From assembly GCA_023313575.1 (NCBI GenBank), contig JAJTTP010000019.1:124001-188000 (forward strand): a DNA stretch of 64,000 nt, given 5' to 3'. Within the stretch, counting starts at the first letter, position 1, and every line of letters starts with the position of its first letter. The stretch is from Eutypella sp. D-1 (Eukaryota > Ascomycota > Sordariomycetes > Xylariales > Diatrypaceae). A program made the position numbers and the translations under genes. Positions 21,655-56,800 of this stretch are shown here, in pieces. The notes beneath the pieces were generated by a model. That model worked only from the letters and a program-made list of their open reading frames with translations, ran no database searches and was not told the DNA's origin.

Positions 21655-22812
21655 TCAGACCAGCTCAGGCCATCCCGATTGAAAATCCAGCTTGTTCCAA
21701 CCGAGATTGTACCGTTCGCGCTGAGGCTTCTTCGTAGCAGGATCGATAGGAACTGTGCAATAACAAAATTAGCACATCGTCATAGGTAAAGTGAAACCAA
21801 AAGTAGTTATAGGATACAAGAAATGCTAGCACTTACCATAGTGATAGTAAAGAAGCGTATACCCCGAATCGGGGTCAAAGTCAATAACACCTTGGCCACC
21901 TGGTGCCCAAACGTTGCCGTGGCTTCCCAAGACCATTGTCCCACCGCCATCGTTGCACTTCCTACCCTTCTTGTCAACCCATCCGTGGCGCGGATTCTTG
22001 GAGCGGCAGACCATGATCTTGTACACATCGCCCGGGCCTGCCCACGTGCCGTCCTCGTCCCTTGTCGCGCGTCCGGATGAGAAGAACAAATAAAAGAAGT
22101 CGTCCAACTGGTATATAAAGCCGGCCTCCGTTGGGTTGGGATGCTTAAGTCCCTCAGTCATATTGCTTGCGAGGAGATTCAACTTATCGAGGCCTCCCGG
22201 TGTGACTCTCACCGGCGGGTCCCCCAGCTGAATCTGGAACAGACCGTGTTGGTACGAACCAAAAAGCAGCAGGTTGCCGCGCACATCGAGGTGCGACTGG
22301 CCGACCGTGAGAAGCGAAGCGTCGAGCACGTTGTATGCCTTGCTCCAGGGGATGTTAAGGTGTCCGTGCTGCTTCCAGCTTCCAGGTTCCATCGTTTTCG
22401 AGCTGCGTACGAAGATGCTTGAACCGTGCCAGTATTGCTTTGCTTCGGGGTCGTCTACACCAGCTAGCGAGTAGTCGAAACGGTTGTTGCTGTAGTACAT
22501 ATAGTACTGGCCGTCAAGAAAATGGACGTAGGGTGCGTTCCACGGCTCCCCGTCGGGGAAGACTAACTCCTTGGTCTTCACCCAGGGTCCACGCATGGAC
22601 GGGCTCGTCCACATATACCCCTCGCCCTTGTGTTTTCCCGTTGTGAACAGAAAGAATTTGCCATCCGATTCACGCTGAATAATTGCCGGATCCATCGTGA
22701 TCTCTCGGTCGTTGTGGGGGATTACTCCCTCGATCGGCTCGGGATCAGGCCATGCGAGGGAACCGCAGGCCAGTATGCCCGCTGTAATAAATATGGACTT
22801 GGCGAAATGCAT
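21655..22812 (-). CDS. Secreted glycoside hydrolase family 43 (arabinanase/xylosidase-like)
   Basis: Exons 21837-22812 and 21655-21752 are joined across an 84-bp intron (GTAAGT, GTGCTAATTT, GCACAG). The protein has 357 residues. A signal peptide (MHFAKSIFITAGILACGSLA) precedes a five-bladed GH43 propeller. The three catalytic acids are in place: D41 (MDPAII, base), D164 (NVLDASLL, pKa modulator) and E229 (NPTEAGFIYQ, acid). The YYMYYS and FYLFFSSG strands and GSHGNVWAPGGQGV are family-typical. GH43 enzymes remove or cleave alpha-L-arabinose or beta-xylose from arabinan and arabinoxylan outside the cell; which linkage is cut cannot be decided here. There is no CBM. The short C-terminal exon ends LGWNKLDFQSGWPELV. 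Confidence 0.9.
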
Positions 22813-23965
22813 CGTTGCTGTATCCTGTATGCCCGTATGCGCGATAAATTGTAAGTCGTTAGAAGTCCAAGATCCCCCGAACTAAACGCTTGGGTCTCTC
22901 GTAGATGAGCTTCATATGAAGACAAAGGCCCTTATTTGTACTAAAGTATCTCGAAAGTATTTACAATGGAGCGAAGGCGGCAAACTCTGTAGGTAGATCA
23001 CGCGGCCTTCCCTCTGTGTGCCCAGTCATTGTTCTCGTCGAACCCTTTGAAAGTTAATGCGCCGCTTCGGACAAGCCAAGGTGATTCTCGTTGGGCAACA
23101 TTGCCGGATAACCAATCTGATATGTGAGGCAAAGCGGTGCCGGCTTTTACCCTCTTTCCTCCGCCTATTACATTATTGAAAGACAATTCTCTTTAATATT
23201 CATTAAATGTAACTGGCTGTGGATCATCAGGTGTCTTCCTATAAGGCTACTAAACAGTAGACTTTCTCTTGTACTCACTGAGTTGGTTGGTTTCAGCTTG
23301 GTCTCAATGCATTAGGGAGTTTGGACAACAACGTAATGCGCTTAAATATATTTACTACATTCTCTCCCTCAATAAGCACATGCTTATTTGTTAGGTGAAA
23401 TTATGCTTCCTTGAACTCATTGATTATATTGATTTATACCGTACCGGCCCTCTAATTACTCCAAGTATGATCGGACGTGAGGCAACTACTCGCACGGCTG
23501 AGCCTATTTTTCGCCCCACTCAGGGACATCAGTGTCAGTTGCCGATCGCTTTTCTATAGTAGATAGTATACCATTTATTGATCAGCAGCCGCGACGCCCG
23601 GCCTGAAGCAATTGTGAGGTAACATTTGGGCGAATGATATGCTAGATAAGCCACTGCTTAGATAGGCCTATCTATGTGGGGCCAGCTACCCCTATTTACC
23701 CCTATCTGAGACCTAATACCCTTATGAAAACTTAACGCTTCAGACCCCTAGAGGGATGTAACACCTACTGATCCTAATAATTCCCGGGTCCTTGGAAGCA
23801 AGGATACTTATACGTGGCTGAGTGTTCCAGTCTGTCGGCGCCACAGCATCCCTTGCTCCTTTCACCATGATAGCAGGAAAACGAGACCACTAATTCTCAA
23901 GATTAATCTCTGACCTCATTTATCTCATTTATGGTATGAGGAGCATTAACCATTTCAACTATAAC
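22813..23965. other. Intergenic, no supported gene
   Basis: Upstream region of the GH43 gene. No other frame with protein-like features. Confidence 0.45.
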
Positions 23966-25277: not shown

Positions 25278-28200
25278 TTATCCCAGATATACAATAGCGC
25301 TTCTATATCGAGCAAAATCACTCCTCTCTACAAGATCCGATACTTCTCCACCCAAGCTCTTCAATGCCATCTTTTTAAGCTCAACCAGAAGCGTGTGGTT
25401 CCTCGTTTCGGAACATAACGCAATGTCTAGAAAGCGGAGAATTACTCTAGACACCCCGATCATTCCTTGTTTTTGCTCATGTGGATCGATGGCTGGGTCG
25501 GCTTCCCCAATGCGCTGGTAGACGGCCTTTTTGACGATTCCAAGGTCGTCATGTGATGCAATATTGCCCAATTCAAGTACCTTTTTGGCCAAAGAGTTCA
25601 GAGCTCCAGGCTGTATTTCCTCAGCCGTTCCAAATAAGTCGACAGTCGCGTCAAAGATGGCTACTGAGTCCTGAGCCCGGGTATGTACACCTCGTACTGC
25701 TTCGTCTCCAGCAGTTGATTCGCGATAGGGATAAACCTCCTGTGCAGATTGCAAGCCCGTTTCGAGAAGTTTCCGTAGTGTAGATGTTGTAGAACTACTC
25801 CCGAGCTCGATAGCTGCACGAAGTAATCCTATACCTACAAGAGCGAAGCCGAGAGCTTCGTCATGCCTTTTGTCCTTGACGCATTCTTGATATTCCCTCC
25901 ATTTCCGATCGACCAGTTGTCTAGCCATGGACTGCATTTTACCATTGAGAACCTCGTCCCACCGTATGACCCACTCTCTGCTGAACTTTTTGAGCAGTTC
26001 TTTCCGGGAGCTCAATGCAGCTGCTCTAAGGAGCTCAAGACCAGCCTGTGCATAAACCTCAGCATTGACTTGGTCCTGGACCATGACCGCTTTTGAGAAT
26101 CGCTCTGCGAATACGCGTATGAGTTGCCGCACCGGTACCTCGCCTGCTTCGCCGAGGTCCTCCACGTCGCTGACAGCTTTTATCCAAAGCTTAGAAATGA
26201 CAAAGCAAAGGTATCTATACTTGTGCCCACGTTGGACAGCTGTAAGAAGTAGCTCGATGCCGACCAGAGCCAAGGCTTCGGCTCTCGCGAACCTTTCTTG
26301 AGGATCCAAGTGGTTGTTGGTCAAGTGCTCCTTGAGTTCATTGGCACGTTGGAGGACGACCATCTGCAACATCGGCTCACCGAAGGCTGGATACGAGATA
26401 AGGTTGTTCAGTGCCTCGACCCATGTGCTGGATATTAGCCTAATTACAGCTCTGTCATTAGTCACAATGGCTTCTTCCAGGATCTTCACCGCAGCTTGAG
26501 TCATCCGATCCAGAACTTGCGGGAAGTGCTCTCCAAGACCGTCTTGCACAAGTGCAGATCCAGCACGGCGCAAATTGGGTGATGTTGCGCCGATGGGTCT
26601 GGCTTGCAGGACTGTATCATCCTCTTCCTCCACCGAGCGTATGCCACACAGCTTTAGCAGATCTCGGAGTCTCAGCCTACGGCGAGTTCTGTAGCTCGTT
26701 GGTGCTTCAGAGCTTTCGCGTGACTGCGTGGCAAGCGCTACCACGTCGTGAAAGCAATCCTTACCAAGAGATGATAATACTTTAAGGAAGGTAGTGTCGC
26801 CAGTTCTGATTTCCTTTCCAATCAGTTTCTCGAACTGGTCGATGAGGGAGCTAATAGTGTCCATGTTATTAGCTTTGAGGGTGGCCCTGAATATCTTTCG
26901 CTGGATCTGTCGATGGTCGTGCGATCTAGAAGCGCTGGCTTTGCCATAATGTGGAGCCTTTGGATCGCTCTCTATTAACATAGCCTTTATGACTTTATGG
27001 CCACGATCATCTGCAGCTTCATAAGCCGTACCCATCGGACCCTTAGCTTTGCGAACCTTAGCACCTTTTGCCAAGAGGAGACGAACAATCCCCGGGCTCC
27101 CCTGGTAAGCCGCTGCACGAAGAGCTGGCCCGACGAGACCACTCCTATCATTGGCATTCACCCCACGGTCAAGAAGCTCTCGCACAATTTCTTCGTAATC
27201 AGTGGGCTCCACTCCCAGATTCCCTATAGCTGCAGCAGTCACGGCGCTCCCGTATGTTTTGTGCGTCGCGCGAAGATCAATTTGTTTTGAGCAGAGAAGC
27301 CTGACGAGTTCTGGATGTCCATGGAATGCAGCCGCATGTAGTGAAGTGCCAAATGGTCCCTCTTCCTCTACAATCTTGGATTTTCCAAAACGGTTGAGTA
27401 TGGCTTCGGCGCAACGACAGCATCCGATCAGGCACAGCGCTTGCAAAGCAGAACCGAAAGCACTTTGTACCTTGACGTCCGCCTGCGAATTGATAAGACA
27501 CATGATTACGTCTTCGTGATGCTTTCTGCAGGCAATGATCAAAGCCGTCTCGTTGTTTTTGTCAGTAAGATTTAGCCTAACATTTTGATCATTGATGAGC
27601 ACCTGTGCTGCCTGTGCATTCCCGTAATAAGCCGCATAGTGCAAGGGGGAACGGCCATCCTTGTCGACGCTGGAGACAAGTTTATCTGGGTAATGCTGAA
27701 TCAACTTTCGGGCTGTAAGTGCAGCGGCGTCATGATCCAATTCGTTCCGTATAGCCCAGTGGAGCGAACTCAAGCCATCATCATCACGCTTCGTCGGGTC
27801 AAGCCAACCACGTTCCATGAAAACATGAATAAATTTGTCGAGTGCAAAGTAGCTTATGATATGTTCATGAGAAACTCCACCCGGCATCGCTTTTCCTTGA
27901 CGAAGTAGGTGTACCTGAAAGGCCAGTTGAATATTTCCCTTCCTTCTTTGAGTCTCGTCCTTGTTGAACAGGATTTTCAACAGGCCGATGATCTGAGAGT
28001 GGCTTTGTTGGATCTGCGTACTGGATTCGGACTCGGAACTTATCTTGATGCTAGTGGCCCATCTAGAAGACGCGAATGAGAGAAAAGGATGTTTCTGTAA
28101 AATTGGTTCGAGTTGACTAGTATTGTACCATGTAACACCATTCCAAGGGCCTCGAGAGAAATCTGACGAACACAAGTGGGATAGGCAGAGCTCAGCAAGT

Positions 28201-29712
28201 CGACGGTTGTAGGTAGGCAGCTCATATACCCTGAAGAATTCGAGGACAGTAGTATGCGAGAATTGGAATATTCCGAGCCCGTCGTCGATGACAACCAAGT
28301 TGTTGCAGAATTGGACCACGTTGGTAGGATTAGCAGTCAGATCTTTGTGGATCATCTGGTCTATTTCTCCTCTGAGGTTCAATGATAAGGCGATAAAAAT
28401 GGCCTCTTTCGCCATAGAGCCCGAGTTATGTGCCAATAAGGCCAAGGTTCTCTGAGCGATCTGCTTCCGGAAAGAGTCCTTCAGACGCTCGAATCCTTTA
28501 GCGTGATCTTCGTAGAAGTCTTGCAATTTCTGTATGCGAGCAACATCCTTAAGTGCATGTTCAACTTGTGATTGCATTACCATTGCACAAATTCTCAGCA
28601 CTTGCAGATGTACCAATAGGAACCTAGAGGCTTTTCGTTAGCCCGAACTCGACAGATAAATTCGTGTTACTGACATTCCATTTGCCTGTTTCAACAACTC
28701 ATCATGTGTCCTCTCTCTGAGATCTGGCCGTGCGTCAAAAATTGCTGACCTGAGGTTCATACGCAGGTACAACTGAATGGCATGTTGGGTACGCTCAGGA
28801 GTAACCTCAATCGTAGACCACTCGTACCCCCGCAGCTTGTCGATACCATTGCAATCCCGGGAGCTTATAGCTAGACGAAGACGACGGTCGCTCTTCTTCG
28901 CATAGAGCCTTTTAATCATGGTATTTAGTCCAGAGAATAGTCTGTAGTGAGATTGGTGGGGAAGCTGATCCAACGCATCAACGACGATAAATATATCCTC
29001 ATTCTGTGACATGGCCAGTAACTCATGAAGCTCTTTTTCAACATGTTCGATGGAAGAACGGCGCCCGAAGTGATCGACCGCCCGTTTCTCAGGGCCCCTG
29101 ATTGCTTGTTCCCAGAAGGTCTTTAGCATGTCATGGTAAACACGATCGCTCTTTTCCTCAGCTCCAAAGGGGACATAAAAATACAGCAGCCGAGGGTCAC
29201 TGTTAGTATTTGCTGGAGGCCGAACCGGCTGGATACTGTCGATCACCCGAGACCTAGAATATACGAGACTTAAACTCCACTCGTGCCTATGATAAATTAG
29301 ATGTCGTGATTCTTAGCACTGACATTAGAGTTGATTTGCCACATCCAGCTGCGTTCTGATTAGTCTAGGCTCCCACTTGTCTGTACCTAAGAGAACCTAC
29401 GACGACCGTAAAGCCAGAAAAGTGAGCACCCTCTCTCCATGTTCTTCCAGGTCTTGAACTCAGCCTCCCGCAACAGCCATTCGCACGTCTCAGACCCAGC
29501 CCATGCTTCCTTGAAGTCTTCATGCTTCCTTAGCATAGCATGCTTCGGTGTCAATTCCCCGTTCTCGTTGACGTCTGCGAGTGTCAGTCTGGTGGAGTAG
29601 AAAAGACGGAAAACGTGTAAAACTCACAGGTTACATTGTCGCCGGTGTGGTATGCCACCGTGTCACCAATATTGCCAGTCTGATTGATCGTGACAGGTTC
29701 ATTTTCACTCAT
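25278..29712 (-). CDS. NACHT-ankyrin NOD-like receptor with N-terminal amyloid-like motif
   Basis: Five exons: 29628-29712, 29401-29574, 29324-29348, 28675-29253 and 25278-28623. All four introns (51-70 bp) have GTGAGT, GTAGGT or GTCAGT donors and YAG acceptors. The sum is 4209 nt, 1402 residues. Residues 1-28 form a short motif (INQTGNIGDTVAYHTGDN at 9-26). The NACHT domain follows, with Walker A GRPGCGKST (85-93, assembled across a splice) and Walker B FIVVDALDQLP (about 183-193). About six ankyrin repeats lie at 565-840. A long helical C-terminus has about four ~70-residue repeats (990-1250). Fungal NLRs sense non-self and activate effectors by oligomerising. The short pre-NACHT motif matches the tail of the HeLo protein encoded 745 bp upstream on the same strand, marking a receptor-effector pair. 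No frameshift was seen. Confidence 0.88.
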
Positions 29713-30457
29713 TGCGATCACGGACGCTGGTCAATTCTCAACCAGCCGATGTAGTAGAAGTGAGCAAATTGATATTGGAAATTCGTGTGCTACATAAAAC
29801 AAGGTTATCGCGCTGGAGACCATGGAAGCGCTCAATTATATTCGCCATATGATCTAGTGCGTGCAGGGCAGGCTATAATATACGTTTTAAGCCGCCAAGA
29901 GCGTAGTATAGCAGTCGATCCTGAACAGAATCTCTGGCAGCGAGTAAGAGCCTGCTCAGTCGCATATATTACTGGATGATATTAATGGCTGCCTACATGG
30001 GATACCGGTGTGATCGTAGTAACTGAACGGCAAAACTACAGTGATGGCATGTCCACCCAACGTGAGCTGTGGAGAGTTCCGCCGCGACGGTGTCAAGAGG
30101 ACCTAGCTACAATCCAGAGGCATGGCCATTACGTTTACGTACAACAATATTGACTTGGCAGCAGCAGCACAATAATCACGGATAGCGTATCATATCTTGG
30201 TGCCCAATGTGTACAGTAGTGACTCAAAGGTTCTCCACCAAACAGGGCATTGGTACTACTAAACCGTGACTATGATGATATGCCTTAATACGAAACATAT
30301 AGCCTAATGAAGGCAGTCTACACCCTATCATTCCCAAGAGTGGACCTCACTTCTGCACATCACAAAGCTGAACTATGCAAATCGGATAGTTTGAACATGA
30401 TGATCACTCATAACTGGCTATATGACCTACTCCTATTTCCCGCAGGTTCCACCACCA
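29713..30457. other. Spacer between HeLo and NLR genes
   Basis: 745 bp separate two genes on the same strand. It holds the HeLo 3' flank and the NLR promoter. No coding sequence or obvious element is visible. Confidence 0.5.
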
Positions 30458-31243
30458 TCAGTTGAACGTGTTCGTCTGTGAACTGTTGGCACCATAGCTG
30501 ATGCCTTTGTTGTGGCCCTTGTGGATTCCCACCGTGCTGCCAGTGTTGTAGGACTGGTTGATAACGGTCCCCGCTTGACTAGCATTCAGCTTCTTGTCCA
30601 CGGAGGTCTCCAGCCAAGGATCGCATCCCCCGATGACCTCTTTCAGATCCTCCAAGTTGGCCTTGCTGATCCCACCGCACTCCTCCTCACTAAGCTCTGC
30701 CAGCTTCTCGCGGTCATCCTCCGGCATGAGCCTCTCCAGGCCGTCTACGAGCTCGGAGATGTCGGCTATGAACTTGTCGAAGTGCTCCTTCTTGTAGAAG
30801 ACCCACTTCAGGCATTCGATGGCCTTGGTAGTTTGGGCTTTTCGCTTGCGGAGGAACTGCGTGAACCGGGTTCGGACTTTCTTCAAATTCATCGGCAAGC
30901 ACGATTCGGGGTCGAGTGCCTGCGCGCCAGCCGCGTCTATCTTCTTTCGCACCGCGCTCGCCTGACGTTCGGTCCTGACCAGGCGATCACTGATTCCTTC
31001 GAGGATCTCCAGCATAGACGCTACGTCGTAGGCGACTTGGGGGGTACCGCTCCCGTTGTTAAGAATGCTGTCGATTGTAGTGATGTTGGCAATCTCGCCC
31101 CAACGGGAAAGCCGAAGCTGAATGATGTCAAGCTTCAGCTGGCACGAGTCGAAATCATCTTGGAAATCCCGCGCCAGCTGGATGCGACCCAGGGTCTCGA
31201 TACCAAATTGGTAAAGACTAAGGGCCGTTCCCACGCTCTCCAT
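30458..31243 (-). CDS. HeLo-domain cell-death effector with C-terminal amyloid-like motif
   Basis: Single exon, 261 residues, ATG at 31241-31243. The N-terminal about 215 residues match the HeLo domain (PF14479): a hydrophobic first helix (VGTALSLYQFGIETLGRIQL) followed by DSCQLKLDIIQLRLSRWGE and further amphipathic helices. HeLo domains of HET-S-type proteins form membrane-permeabilising pores when a C-terminal prion-forming region folds as amyloid. Here the tail (about 220-261) is Asn/Gly/Ser/Thr-rich and holds INQSYNTGSTVGIHKGHN at 228-245. This is collinear with the NLR N-terminal motif, with ten identities in 18 positions. The tail is a low-charge, likely disordered segment until templated. 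The role as executioner of the adjacent NLR is inference from architecture and adjacency. Confidence 0.88.
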   Translation of the reverse strand: MESVGTALSLYQFGIETLGRIQLARDFQDDFDSCQLKLDIIQLRLSRWGEIANITTIDSILNNGSGTPQVAYDVASMLEILEGISDRLVRTERQASAVRKKIDAAGAQALDPESCLPMNLKKVRTRFTQFLRKRKAQTTKAIECLKWVFYKKEHFDKFIADISELVDGLERLMPEDDREKLAELSEEECGGISKANLEDLKEVIGGCDPWLETSVDKKLNASQAGTVINQSYNTGSTVGIHKGHNKGISYGANSSQTNTFN

Positions 31244-34787: not shown

Positions 34788-37711
34788 CTATTGCGGTAGT
34801 GGCGGAAGCGCCTTGTCGAAACTGTCGCGACTGGTTTCTCTGTCACCGTGGTCCCTCTTCATGCCCATATCGATATAGCTAGTTTTGGGGGGCGTCGGCG
34901 GTCCTCTGCCCCCTATGCCGTGGGGTCCTAGATCTGTATAGCCATCGTGGCGTTCAGAAGGCGTGTAGGGCCGAGGTCCCCCGCTGCTCTGTCCACGCAT
35001 CGACCCTGCCTCCGCCGTCTCCTCAACGACCGGGAGCACTGCATTAGAGCTGGATCTCGCAACGGTCGTGCTGATTATACGTTCTGGAACTCGGTCCTCC
35101 TTAGCAACGTCCTGTTCATATTTCGTAGCCTGTTTCAAGGCCTTCTCGACGGTAGGGTTCGACTCGGGCGCGAGCGGGCTTCTCATACCTGGGGGAGCGG
35201 GAGGGAGGTAAGTAGGGGCGGGCGGCACGTGATCCTCGCTCTGTGACATAAGGCCATCGGTCTCCATCGCCGCCGCTGCGGCCTCGCGTTCGAGCGCATC
35301 TCGTTCGGCTTGTTCCGCTGACATGGTGATGCCGGCCATAAAGTTGATGAACCGCTCGCCGTATTCTTGTGGTGGAAGGGCCGATATCTGAGTGCGTTCG
35401 CTTGATAAGCCTTTCCAGAAGTGCTCGATCTTCTTGATAATGCCATACTAGAAGGTACGTTAGCTCCTCGATCAATTTTCAGGAAAATCCATAGATCTCT
35501 AGGGTCTCACGTGTGTTAGGCAGTCGATGACGCCAAGGTAATAGACTTCTTCGCCAGGTGAGCTATCCTCGTGAGTAGCCCGCAACCCGCCATCATCGCT
35601 GTAGAAAAGGCCTCCCCGACTTTGCCCTTCCTCCAGCTCGCTTGGCATTCGATCCGCAGTTTGGCCCAGAGGAATCGGCCTCTCAGCCTTCACCATCTGT
35701 CTCAGTTCCCTGGCCTTGCGCGCGCTCTCCAACTTCGACGGCGTCCGCATGAGCGCGGGGTTTGGATCATCAGCCGAGTTGTCGCCACCAGGGTTGAAGA
35801 CCTGAAGGGTCTTATCCCGTAGGTTCTCTTCGTTTCCTTTGCGCAGGTCGTGGATACCGATCAGAAGCGAGTAATCCATTATGCCCAACTTCTGCAAGAG
35901 CCGTACGTCTTGCTGAAGCTGACGCATGAAGAGCTGCTTTTTCTGGATGCCCAACTCGAGATGCCGTTTTCGCCTAAGCCAGTTGAGGTCCTTCAAGGTG
36001 GCCCGGGGGTTCTTTTCCAGATCATCCTCCTTATAGTCTCGTCCTACTGTAGAGCCCTTCAGGTCGAAGGTTGTGTGGATGTCGCGATGCGGGGGGAATA
36101 GGTTGTTCATGACGACAAAGTGAATCTTCTTGCCGTAGGGCATCTTGACGCGGTGCAGTCCATAGAACTGGGACAGCAGCGTATTGGGATTATCAATCAC
36201 GTGGTTGTAGTAGTCCCTGAGTATTTTTCGTAGGAATTTGTGCTCGGCATGATGAATCGTCTTGATGATGTACTTGTAATCTCGGGAATAGTAGAAGAAG
36301 CTACCACTCTTACCCGGAGACCCGAGCTCGGAAAGGATATACTTCCCGGTGAGCGACATCAGATAGTCGGCGGGGTCCAACTTGAATAGGGCGCGTAAAT
36401 GTCGGAAGACCCAGGGCGCGTAGTCCTTGAATTTGAAGTCATACTTCGCCGATGGTACTAACTCGTTCCCAGCACTGTATTGAGGCATTAAATTTTTGGG
36501 TACATGGGGATGAGAATCACTGGACTGCTTCAGACTTACATGTCGAACGTCGATTTTTGCTTAGCGTCGAAGTCTGCATCAGTCAAGGGTCGATCGAGCT
36601 TGGCATTAGTACGCGAGACAGACACGCGGATGCCCGTCAACATGTTGTAGGCGGTTTCCCAGTTCGCGTGGGACTCGTCGACTTTAGTCCCGACGAGGAC
36701 CCTATCGTCATCTTCCTCTTCCCGTCTTTTCCGTCTCGCACGCTTCTGTCGATATGCTTCGGTCCAACGAGCCGCATCGTCGTCGGGGAGAACCTCATCA
36801 CGATGTATCTCTGAATGAATCGACCGCGTATTACGCCGGCCTAAACTCAAGGACGCTCTTCGGCCACTTGGACCGGCGGTGGGGGAGAAACGGCCGCTCG
36901 CAAAGGCAGTATCGGCCGGGGCATCTTTGCTTGTTGAGCCTCGGTTATTAGGTTGTGGTTTGGGAACTTCCAGGGTGTGACGTTGTCTTAGGGGGTTTGG
37001 AGGGGCGGCCTGGAGTGAGGGTGTAGAAGAGGAACCACCGTAATGCGCGGGCGAAGAATATCTCTGGGGAGGGGCAGCTCCTTGGTGTGGTTGGAGGGCA
37101 TCAGCGGTGTGCACGGTGTGCGTATCACCGTTGAGCTGTGCATGGGGATCGACAGAGTTTTGTTGTAAAGAGTTGCGGGCCGAGGACGGAAGCGTGCCCC
37201 TTTCAATCTGAGGATTTGACATACTAGCGGGAGGCGCATAAGTCCTCTTGGATGACGAAGAGGATAATCTTCCGTTGAAACCGGGGCCGTCGATATCAGA
37301 AGAGTTCTTCAGGTTCTCGTTGGTGTTATTGTTATTTACTCCGTTGGGCATGGGGGATTTCGATCTGCTGCCGAATATGGGGGCCATGGTAACGGGAGTT
37401 TTAGTGGTAGTGGTCGTAGCGGCGGTCTGGGATGAGGATGGGTGGGGGGGATTTGGTGATCTCGAGCGGGAGGAGGAGTTCGTAGAACGGGAACGGGAAG
37501 ATAAAGTGTCGTCGGAGCTGCTCTCGTTGGTCACGTAGCGATCAATATTAGTGGACAGGGCCTTTCCAATAGTAAGATGGTCGTCCTTGAGGTCGTCCTT
37601 GGGAAATTTCGATCCGTCGGCGGCGTGGTAGTATCGAGAATCGTTTAGGTGAATAACGCCGGCATTAGGGACATCGACAGGCGCGTTCTTGCCGCTGAAA
37701 AACGAGGGCAT
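34788..37711 (-). CDS. mss4: Phosphatidylinositol-4-phosphate 5-kinase (Mss4/Its3 type)
   Basis: Three exons: 36540-37711, 35511-36474 and 34788-35447. The introns are 36475-36539 and 35448-35510. The sum is 2796 nt, 931 residues. The kinase makes PI(4,5)P2 at the plasma membrane and controls actin, endocytosis and wall signalling. Residues 1-350 are a Ser/Pro/Asn-rich disordered N-terminus. The PIPK domain begins near [20 protein letters not shown] and shows [39 protein letters not shown] (catalytic and ATP-binding), [13 protein letters not shown] and the activation-loop region [21 protein letters not shown] Pro-rich C-terminal tail follows. The ATG at 37709-37711 is the first in frame. Length and domain order are usual for filamentous fungi. 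Confidence 0.95.
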
Positions 37712-52261: not shown

Positions 52262-53827
52262 ATGCTTCGACCAGCGATCCGGCGGTGCGCCCGGCCTCTG
52301 GCCTCTTCGCTGCGGTCGCCTAGAACTGTTGCACTATCCCGCCATGCCTCGTCGTCGTCGTCGTCGTCGAATACCCCTGCGCCGTCCTTCGATTGGGAAG
52401 ACCCTCTTGCAAGCAACACGCTCTTCACTGAGGAGGAACGGGCCATAGCCGAGACTGCGGAGCGGTACTGTCAGGAGCGATTGCTACCGCGGGTGCTTCG
52501 TGAGTTTTATTTATCCATTCGTTCTTTTTGTTCTTCTTTGCTTTATTTACTTTCTCCCCTGTTTCTAATCCTAGTCGGCTAATCAAATTCCCGACTCCAC
52601 TCCCCTCCCGATCAACAGAGGCCTACCGCGACGAACACTACGACCCGACGATCCTACGTGAGATGGGCGAGCTGGGCCTGCTGGGCGCTAACCTCGAGGG
52701 CTACGGGTGCGCGGGGGCGTCGACGGTGGCGTCGGGGCTGATCACGCGGGCGGTGGAGCGCGTCGACAGCGGGTACCGGTCGGGGATGTCGGTGCAGTCG
52801 TCCTTGGTGATGGGGGGTATCCACGAGTTCGGGACGGCGGAGCAGAAGGAGCGGTACCTGCCGGCGATGGCGCGGGGCGAGCTGCTGGGCGCGTTCGGCC
52901 TCACGGAGCCCAACCACGGCAGCGACCCGGGCGCGCTCGAGACCACCGCCCGCCCCCACCCCTCCCGCTCCGGCTACCTCCTGCTCAGCGGCGCCAAGAC
53001 CTGGATCACCAACTCCCCGATCGCCGACGTGCTGCTGGTGTGGGCGAAGCTGCGGGACACGGGCAAGATCCGCGGCTTCCTCGTCGACCGTCGCGACGAC
53101 CGCCCCGCGGGGACGCTGGAGACGCCGGCGATTAAGAACAAGACGGGCCTGCGGGCCAGCGTGACGGGGATGATCCAGCTCGACGACTGCCCCGTGCCCG
53201 AGGCCAACATGTTCCCCGGGGTGGAGGGCCTGCGAGGCCCGTTCGCATGCCTCAACTCGGCGCGCCTGGGCATCGCGTTCGGGACCATGGGCGCGCTGGA
53301 GGACTGCCTGGCGCGGGCGCGGACCTACGCGCTCGAGCGCCGCCAGTTCCGCGGGAACCCGCTCGCCCGCTACCAGCTCGTGCAGCGCAAGCTCGCGGAC
53401 GCCGCCACCGACGCCGCCTACGGCGTGCTGGCCGCCGCGCAGGTCTGCCGCCTCAAGGACGCCGGCCACGCCACCCCTGAGATGATCAGCATGGTCAAGC
53501 GCCAGAACTGCGACCGCGCGCTCGCGGGCGCCCGCGCCCTCCAGGAGATCTTCGGCGGCAACGCCGTTGCGGACGACTATGCCATCGGCAGGCACGTGGC
53601 TAACCTGTTCGTCACCCAGACCTACGAGGGCCAGAGCGATATCCATAGTAAGTCCCCGCTTCCTTGTCAACCCCCCCCCCCCCCTTTCCATATACCTCCT
53701 ATTTTTCTTATCTACCTCGTGTGGATGGCCCGAGTGCCCATGCTGTGCGATGGGTCGCTGATCAACAACGCCCTGCGCAGGTCTTATCCTTGGAAGGGCG
53801 ATCACGGGAATACAGGCGTTCGTATAA
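52262..53827 (+). CDS. Glutaryl-CoA dehydrogenase (mitochondrial acyl-CoA dehydrogenase)
   Basis: Exons 52262-52499, 52619-53647 and 53781-53827 are joined across introns of 119 and 133 bp. The sum is 1314 nt, 437 residues. An Arg/Ser-rich mitochondrial presequence covers about the first 30 residues. The body matches glutaryl-CoA dehydrogenase: MGELGLLGANLEGYGCAGAS, FGLTEPNHGSDPGALET (FAD and substrate loop), TWITNSPIADVLLVWAK, NSARLGIAFGTMGALEDC, RRQFRGNPLARYQLVQ and EIFGGNAVADDYAIGRHVAN. The catalytic base is E416 in YEGQSDIHSLILGRAITG, which spans the second intron. The enzyme oxidises and decarboxylates glutaryl-CoA to crotonyl-CoA in lysine and tryptophan catabolism. The large exon is extremely GC-rich at third positions, which creates long antisense frames. 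Confidence 0.94.
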
Positions 53828-56800
53828 GGCGGCAAAGCACCGCCGTACCTACATAGTCTACATCAAGTAAGAAAGGACAGTAGCTATCCATGACGCCGTC
53901 GTTGGATTCCTCCCAGAACAATCAATCTATGTAAGATAGACAGACACGGGCCGTGTGCGCTCGCTACCTTTGCCGTGTGACGCTTAAGTTATGCCGTTTT
54001 ATTCGCCCAGTGTATAGAGACGGAGACCCAAGAGTCATTGCCTAAATAAGGGGGGAGTGGGGATTCCCTTCAAGCCCGAGCGGAACCCCCTTCGGATCTA
54101 CATACGACGATATCTTCGCTTATGTTGACTATTATATGACGGGAACCAATGAATCTGCACTCTTAACAGAGTTGTGTTTGTATTGACTCAATCGAGCATA
54201 GTTATATATATATATATAGTACGGAGAATGGTGGGGGATACGGCCCGTACGAATATAACATAACTCCATAGCCGTCTGCATACATTATATACATGCATAC
54301 GTCGTCGTGGGGTTTGGAGGCCATCCGTCACAGCCGTATCCTAATAACTAATGCTCGCTATGATGCATCGTCAACAAGGATGGAGACAGGCGGCTATGTA
54401 GGGGGGGAGAGGGGGGTTAGGAGGGTAGGTCTGCGTCGCCTATGCCATATCATATTCGACGATGGGATGGGTACGGGCACGCACGCGGGCACAGACAGGG
54501 GGCGATAACTCAATAGTTACATACTTAGGTACATAAGGGTCCGGCCGCAAAGGTTGCCAGTTTGCTTTCCCGGCGAGTGGGTCGGGTGTGAATGCCTACC
54601 TTGCCTACTACATACATACATGGGGAGCGGACCCTCACTTGGGCCGGAGCTGCTGAATTATATGCCCGATGTTTTGTCTCTGTTTGTAGTTGAGACGAAA
54701 TAGTAGATAATCAGATAGGGGTTGTCTTCACATTCAGACGATGATGTTCTATTTAGGTACATATGACTAAGACTTGCTTCGCCTAGGTGGTGGCAAGCAG
54801 GTCTATATCTCTCTGGCTCTATTGGGCTTTAAGGTTGGTAAGTTCCAGCGTTGGTTGTTGCGGTGTGGTGGCTGAGTTTGGTTTGCAGTGCACATGTCGA
54901 ACAACCTGGGCAAGCCTGGGCAAGTAAACAGGATGAACAAGGGAACCTACGGCAGCTGCCAGGCCAGCAAGCTACGGGTCCTTCCTGATAGGTCCGTAAG
55001 AATGAATATCCAAGGTCGGTAAGCGCTGCCGTCTATCTATGGATCAGGGCGCCACCACCACCAAGTATATGTTGTAGTGAGTAGTATGGATGGAACTCAG
55101 GTCGCCATCGGGCTGAAAGGTGCAGTCGCACTTGGACATATGATAGGCTGGCCAGACGTAGGCCCTACCTGGGATTTACATGTAGTGCATATGTGAACGA
55201 CCTGGGTATTTACTCCCCTATGCCGTTGGAAGGAGACAGATGCCAGGATGCCCTTCCAAGGTTGAGGTCCTTCTCTTTGTCCAAGACACACAAACACAAA
55301 GAAGTGCTCAGCTGGATGGGAGTTACGGGTAACTATCATGGAAGGCGGAAAGGAAGGCAAGAGCCCTATAGATAGAAGGCGCCGGGTACCTTCAGTTTAC
55401 CACAGGCTGCCGGAGCACCCCGGCCTATGTATTGTACCTTATCCCCTTATCCTGCCCAGGCGGTACCTAACTGTCGGGTCCCATTAGAAGTAGTAACAGC
55501 TCAGCCATTCAGATTCAACCATTCCAAGCCCCAGCACACCACTCCATACTAAATGAGGTACTCTTCAGGTGACTAACCTCCATAACAGCCTGACAGGCTG
55601 TCAGTAGGTACAAAGAAAACGGGAAGTGAGCAAGTACCCATATATACATATTCGATACATATCTAGATACCCAACTTCCATCATTTTGGCCTTAATCATA
55701 AGTACCTCCTGAAGTAACTATATGACCAAAAAAGCACAAACGCAAAAAACCTGACGCAAAAACGGCGGAGGCGGAAGCGGTCTTCGACTTCCATTTTCTT
55801 CAAGGTTCCCTTCTTTCTACCTTCTCTCTCTCCCACTCTCTCTCCCACTCTCTCAGTCTCCCCCCTCACCCCCACTACAATAAACCACTTTGACTGCACC
55901 AGCACCAAAACTCCTCCTAGTTAGGCCCAAAACCAGGACAATCTGTCTACCATCATCATCAATTAAGGCTCGTTTTTTGTTTTCCTTTCCCTTTTCTTCC
56001 TCTTTTTCCCCAAGTTTCATATCCGTCTCCTATCGACAACAACCAACAACCACCACCACAACTCCATCGATTTGTCCCAACCACGATAACACCTGCGGAT
56101 AGCAACACCGCAAAAAAAAAAGAAAAAAGATTAAAATCAATAGAAAAAAAACTAAAACGACGAAAAAAGACTTTGCATCGGTTTAACTTCCATCCCGCTA
56201 CTCTCATTCTCTTGGACTTTGAGTAAGCCTTGGACCTTGAGACGATAATCCTTTGATTAGTCATTATCTCATTCTCCCTTTCACTTCCCTCATTCAACTG
56301 ACTGTTCTGGTATGTACACCCCGCTTCCGCTTTCTCTACCTCTCTAAGTACATCCATCCGATCGACAATGATAATCCCCCTATTGAGAGGAGTATCTGCT
56401 GGTCTACCTACCTGGTAGTGAAGTAGTCACCAACGTCTAAACATCCATCTACCTAATCTACCACCACTCCCCCCCCCCCCCCCTCCAACCGCCTTACCAC
56501 CTATCATTCACTACCTATCACCTGCCCGAGTGCCTAATAGGCTGCTTTCCTACCTACTATTGTCTATCCTCCCTATTCTTCCTTCGCCCTACTTCACTGA
56601 ACTTGGAAAGAAAAGAAAAAAAAGAAATACATATCATCTACACGAACGGCTCGATCGACACTGATTGATAACTGTATTTTCTATTGTCTTCCATCTTTTA
56701 CTGACCGCTTTCATATAAATAAATAGCTTGCCTGGTCTCTGTCCACATTCGACTACCGACGGCATCAGAAATCATCCCCAAAAGTCAAGACAGGACCAAG

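Follow-up and report, generated by a model that had tools for sequence, protein, structure and literature searches.

Fungal amyloid signaling motifs whose effectors are known are reported to be few, namely HRAM (HET-s-related amyloid motif), PP, sigma, and PUASM, besides a single rare type (PMC9815663). In the HET-S/NWD2 system of Podospora anserina, which is of the HRAM1 type, a HeLo effector with a C-terminal motif is found beside a nucleotide-binding oligomerization domain-like receptor (NLR) with one N-terminal copy, and one NLR motif is reported to suffice for templating of the effector (PMC4344463). Here, we describe a gene pair of this layout in a window of 64,000 nt (G000:C11:124001-188000) of the 48.5 Mb genome of Eutypella sp. 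D-1, which its NLR genes with introns and its families of HeLo, SesA, and sigma also mark as fungal. In this window, a HeLo-domain effector gene and an NLR gene encode a common 18-residue motif. We consider it probable that they form an NLR–effector pair of the HET-S/NWD2 kind, signaling by way of their own homotypic motif, which is probably amyloid. Coordinates refer to the window unless a contig label (C1, C6, C7, C34, C72) is given.

The effector and receptor genes

The effector gene (30458..31243, minus strand) is a single exon encoding a protein of 261 aa. This protein, recovered in the whole-genome HeLo search, is a member of the HeLo family, scoring 94.3 bits against the Pfam model PF14479 (cut-off 23.2; E 1.2e-26), and its residues 10–221 match the HET-s/HET-S structures in PDB (small S protein 2wvn, E 1.5e-16). 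AlphaFold2 was run on eight HeLo sequences and gave a low-confidence model (mean predicted local distance difference test score 53.7, below 50 from residue 193), which is helical up to residue 224, with the tail from residue 225 predicted without secondary structure. A Foldseek search with this model returned no matches at E <= 0.001.

The receptor gene (29712–25278, minus strand) has five exons and four introns, all GT..AG, of 53, 52, 70, and 51 nt, and its spliced product has 1402 aa. Exon 1 (29628..29712, 85 nt), which codes for the N-terminal motif, starts with an ATG and continues in an open frame to a GT..AG intron that is in frame with exon 2 (29401..29574), encoding a linker and the start of the nucleotide-binding domain. 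This first exon, and hence the receptor motif, is predicted from splice consensus and reading frame alone. Most of the P-loop (GRPGCGKST, intact in the spliced protein at residues 85–93) is encoded by exon 3 (29324..29348, 25 nt), the NACHT domain by exon 4 (28675..29253), and the ankyrin repeats and C-terminal region by exon 5 (25278..28623). In Pfam searches, the first 441 residues of the spliced protein matched NPHP3_N (2.9e-27, from residue 57) and NACHT (7.4e-7). The exon model is supported by these values, because the unspliced open reading frame (ORF) gave far weaker ones, of only 2.1e-7 and 0.22, respectively. Seven stretches of ankyrin repeats (Ank_2, 6.7e-42) follow the NACHT domain. 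It was not possible to detect any Pfam match ahead of the nucleotide-binding domain, and the last 532 residues (25281..26876) matched no Pfam family at E <= 0.1 and had no second copy in this genome at E <= 0.01. With its NACHT domain and P-loop, its C-terminal repeats, and a short N-terminus lacking an annotated effector domain, the protein is a fungal NACHT-type NLR. Both genes lie in tandem on the minus strand, the receptor gene 745 bp downstream from the effector gene (intergenic stretch 29713..30457).

The motif common to effector and receptor

Residues 228–245 of the effector (INQSYNTGSTVGIHKGHN; 30509..30562, minus strand) and residues 9–26 of the receptor (INQTGNIGDTVAYHTGDN; 29635..29688, minus strand) align without gaps over 18 residues, with ten identities and a BLOSUM62 score of 50. 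The motif is a pseudo-palindrome, N-x-G-x-T-V-[AG]-x-H-x-G-x-N, with INQ ahead of the pattern. Its two copies thus occupy the C-terminus of an effector and the N-terminus of the adjacent NLR, which is the HET-S/NWD2 architecture. When the coordinates, the gene models, the 745-bp same-strand gap, and the ungapped match of the initial annotation were re-derived, all of them proved right, and the two-component arrangement that it proposed is borne out by the domains, their positions, their adjacency, and the same-genome controls given below. It had also called the motif amyloid-like; the sharing is upheld by shuffling and by BLASTP of the motif pair (E 1e-4 in one single comparison), while the amyloid character is suggested by analogy with described systems.

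Shuffling the ends of 40 and 35 residues 5000 times never gave a score of 50, and 2000 shuffles over a broader 61 x 80 range gave it once. When the alignment was permitted gaps, this score turned up in 6 of 20,000 shuffles of single residues and in 9 of 20,000 shuffles of two-residue blocks. Among 215,515 stop-free six-frame 18-mers, taken from the window and other sampled genome loci (five window-overlapping loci were dropped and the remaining overlaps kept), the runner-up for either copy scored 35. The effector tail was also compared, in three forward frames, with the 1650 nt at and upstream of 30 of the 41 NACHT matches in the genome, the other 11 having no locus; its best score there was 38, versus 50 with its own NLR. 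As a positive control, the tail of the HeLo protein on contig C34, which belongs to a canonical HRAM pair, found its own NLR at 56, followed by 34. The tails from C6 and from the sigma system, whose own receptors are outside this set, reached only 35 and 37. The best non-cognate match of the effector tail (score 38) falls in AYQPGLTASTHKAHTR, a stretch that lies upstream of a NACHT match on C7 (G000:C7 772289-772762), and is probably due to chance.

At the DNA level, the two copies are identical at 37 of 54 positions, and of the ten identical residues, six have the same codon and four have different ones, so the two copies do not stem from a recent duplication of DNA. No third gene with the motif could be found above chance in the window (best other score 25.5; 35 among the 18-mers). 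Genome queries with the motif alone hit only their own locus, a result that does not establish uniqueness, since the NLR query missed even the effector copy. A further genome search gave matches outside the window that span query residues from 40 on, i.e., the NACHT side. In prokaryote contigs, a scan with the two-row motif alignment gave 43 pattern stretches, none of which was confirmed. The neighbors of the pair in the window are ordinary genes, for a glycosyl hydrolase of family 43 (21829–22881, minus strand), a PIP5K (35502–36560, minus strand), and an acyl-CoA dehydrogenase (52504–53853, plus strand), and Rfam gave nothing at gathering scores.

Motif classes and the other motif systems of the genome

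HRAM motifs are described as having G at position 19, hydrophobic residues at 5, 8, 10, 16, and 18, and typically N, Q, or H at 3, and as usually occurring twice in the effector (PMC4518210). HRAM membership was rejected, as no register satisfies this pattern in both window copies: the best effector register has four of the five hydrophobics yet L at position 3, and the corresponding receptor register has two of the five. The suggestion in the initial annotation of an unlisted HRAM subfamily is therefore not supported, given that the same test recovered the C34 repeats r1, r2, and r0 with 4, 5, and 5 of the 5 hydrophobics and N at position 3. At E <= 1, PF11558 matched the C34 locus alone in this genome and left the window pair unmatched, which is weak evidence by itself because, among 155 published HRAM proteins, that model matches just 38 (PMC4518210).

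The PP core is given as NxGxQxGxN (PMC9815663), with a longer form FxGx(x)NxGLQLxGxNxGxL (PMC3321046). PP membership was rejected because the Q-centered core is found in neither copy, and the Ses_B model had no window matches at E <= 1. Also rejected were sigma, with no window match to PF17106 at E <= 1 and the A/B submotif patterns absent, and PUASM (FxGxGxQxxGxGxF, with PNP_UDP effectors; PMC9815663), with the pattern absent and HeLo as the effector domain. Neither the C6 pair nor C72, both described below, is caught by the literal PP and sigma patterns (the sigma patterns gave only one hit, in one of two sigma sequences), and the class call therefore leans also on cross-scores and on searches with Pfam models. 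Judged by its sequence, the motif is outside the published signatures of HRAM, PP, sigma, and PUASM, a comparison that covers the text patterns of these four classes. Further published classes are NLR17, 19, 20, and 34, PF01048_015, and the bacterial BASS1-10, and we make no claim that the motif is absent from the literature. The initial annotation had likewise placed it in no named class, and a new variant, the other option that it offered, fits the evidence.

This genome contains other motif systems. The HRAM pair on C34 (G000:C34:2151684-2154800) consists of a HeLo protein with two HET-s-type repeats (PF11558, 75 bits) and a divergent NB-ARC/NACHT NLR with tetratricopeptide repeats (TPR), which has one repeat (22.8 bits, below the cut-off). 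On C6 (G000:C6:435937-439641), an effector with PF17111 (PigL_N in Pfam; HeLo-like according to PMC9815663) and a divergent NB-ARC-TPR NLR have in common the PP-like stretch FG..N.GLQ.A.N.G. Their Ses_B scores, 21.0 and 16.9 bits, are both under the cut-off of 23.2, and the NLR stretch is in a short separate ORF. Two SesA proteins with sigma motifs above the cut-off lie close together on C1 (G000:C1:489338-491167), and an NLR-like gene on C72 (G000:C72:367845-368042) matches sigma with 21.4 bits, under the cut-off, in a short first ORF. Being on different contigs, the sigma receptor and effectors are paired by motif only. With the threshold this loose, one of 14 control prokaryotes also gave a below-cut-off match to sigma and one to Ses_B, and for this reason the C6 and C72 labels depend mainly on the within-pair match. 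The NLR motifs of C34, C6, and C72 are in ORFs apart from that of the nucleotide-binding domain, as in the window.

To compare these systems, five effector tails were scored against four NLR N-termini, with 300 shuffles each and hence a floor of p = 0.003. All five cognate combinations were at this floor. With the exception of the C6 tail with C72 (p = 0.013), the non-cognate combinations (14 of 15) had p >= 0.07, the lowest of them being 0.070. By this measure, the window pair acts as a fourth match, distinct from the other three.

The favored reading, its alternatives, and comparison with known systems

Under the favored reading, a ligand would be sensed by the ankyrin and C-terminal part of the NLR, leading the NACHT domain to oligomerize and bring the N-terminal motifs together. 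The clustered motifs would then fold as a beta-arch or amyloid stack, and the one motif in the effector tail would be templated into this fold, so that the HeLo domain would be clustered and switched. By analogy, amyloid templating in the window pair is likely. The oligomerization and templating half of the HET-S/NWD2 analogy is supported by the anatomy of the pair, and the membrane half is doubtful.

Several observations weigh against this reading. The motif comes from a single pair in a single genome, its composition is skewed toward G, N, and T, and no Pfam family matches either motif piece. Its shuffle support is the weakest among the three adjacent pairs, both for residues (6 of 20,000, versus 0 for C34 and 1 for C6) and for blocks (9, versus 0 and 3). 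The effector holds one copy of the motif, where HeLo effectors of the HRAM type usually hold two, and the pair is in tandem, where the adjacent C34 and C6 pairs are divergently transcribed. Finally, the effector has a shortened N-terminal hydrophobic segment (aa 1–27; 31163..31243, minus strand), with the lowest hydropathy among the eight HeLo domains compared.

This last observation bears on whether the effector kills. By alignment, the segment has six residues fewer than that of the C34 HeLo protein, and its Kyte-Doolittle 19-residue maximum is 0.64, versus 1.45–2.02 in the seven others, on one scale and for eight HeLo domains. A ninth HeLo match (G000:C1:3708204-3708744), broken by in-frame stops that reflect either introns or a broken gene, was excluded. 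In HET-S, exposure of the N-terminal ~34 residues leads to membrane targeting, and this segment becomes transmembrane; transmembrane prediction is reported to track toxicity near-perfectly, and H33P alone to abolish it (PMC3531502). Because the segment is shortened and the least hydrophobic of the eight, killing activity is doubtful, and may be weak, of another kind, or absent. The protein might be HET-s-like, or a degenerate HeLo protein, passing the signal on or titrating it without making pores, which we regard as rather unlikely, though deserving serious consideration, and which is compatible with the favored reading until its last step. Against it, the ORF is intact and the HeLo domain scores well, and the hydropathy comes from one scale only. 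Positions 23 and 33, which set HET-S and HET-s apart in Podospora (PMC3531502), vary widely by eye in the alignment of the other HeLo domains of this genome, and for this reason give no verdict on killing. The effector had been annotated as of pore-forming type; its membership in the HeLo family stands, and pore formation is uncertain.

An unlikely alternative is that the motif is a strongly divergent PP/RHIM-like one, which has kept the outer N-x-G and G-x-N and had its GxQxG center replaced. Both copies do have the NxG...GxN frame, HeLo proteins with PP motifs exist (PMC3321046), and the PP-like tail from C6 scores 30 to the effector motif, tied third after the NLR copy (50) and the stretch scoring 35. 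In addition, the effector tail runs on into NKGISYGAN (aa 245–253; 30485..30511, minus strand), which has the spacing of the PP core with S in place of Q. However, this spacing occurs in 1.6% of 20,000 shuffled tails, and a PP assignment from NKGISYGAN alone was rejected, as the NLR does not have it. Neither copy has the central Q or GxQxG, Ses_B gave no window match, and neither cross-score between the window pair and that of C6 reaches significance (p 0.199 and 0.794).

It is quite improbable that the motif acts as a homotypic docking element of a non-amyloid nature. The data reach as far as matched motifs, which would suit such an element, but the experimentally characterized fungal NLR-associated motifs (HET-S/NWD2, PP, PUASM) are reported to form amyloids, and for most other published pairs the amyloid is itself a prediction (PMC4344463, PMC5485727, PMC9815663). 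Least probable of all is a chance likeness of two unstructured ends rich in G, N, and T, since, even with a short and biased sequence, a single locus, and 6–9 of 20,000 shuffles reaching the score, the match sits exactly at both ends foretold by the HET-S/NWD2 model, and real sequence gives at most 38 upstream of the 30 NACHT loci and 35 in the 215,515 18-mers.

As judged from the sequences, the pair is real and matched, and its novelty as a class needs other genomes. It is quite possible, though somewhat less likely than not, that the locus founds a further fungal amyloid class, with an extended pseudo-palindrome that a HeLo effector and a NACHT-ankyrin receptor each carry once, its channel insulated beside HRAM, PP-like, and sigma ones. 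In the 2022 survey, a motif had to occur in at least three non-redundant pairs to be reported from the paired-motif search (PMC9815663), and rare classes could therefore escape it. If the favored reading is true, the pair may add a further private signaling channel between receptor and effector. Should the HeLo domain have lost its membrane segment, the effector would also illustrate in nature a step from a toxin to a non-toxic prion-like protein.

Among the known systems, HET-S/NWD2 and the C34 pair are like the window pair in having a HeLo effector with a C-terminal motif beside an NLR with one N-terminal copy. The window pair differs from both in that its motif lacks the HRAM pattern and is single in the effector instead of double, its receptor is of the NACHT-ankyrin type and not WD or TPR, and its HeLo N-terminus is shortened; it differs from C34 also in its tandem orientation. 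With PP (HELLP/SBP/PNT1 and the Arthroderma HeLo pairs) and C6, it has in common a single short N/G-rich pseudo-palindrome, and some PP effectors have HeLo domains; unlike PP, the window motif is without the GxQxG center, and its outer N-x-G to G-x-N is four residues wider than NxGxQxGxN. Sigma (SesA/SesB/HET-eN; C1 and C72) is similar in the G/N-rich ends of NACHT-ankyrin NLRs and effectors, and the NLR motif of the window is in a 5' exon, as published for het-eN; the window motif, in contrast, has neither the repeated A/B submotifs nor a PF17106 match, and its effector is a HeLo and not a SesA protein. PUASM, like the window motif, is found on NACHT NLRs and is a recent addition, but its pattern is absent here and the effector domain is HeLo. 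With a matched HeLo/NLR pair outside these signatures present beside HRAM, PP-like, and sigma systems in one genome, the idea of parallel channels that do not cross-seed becomes directly testable.

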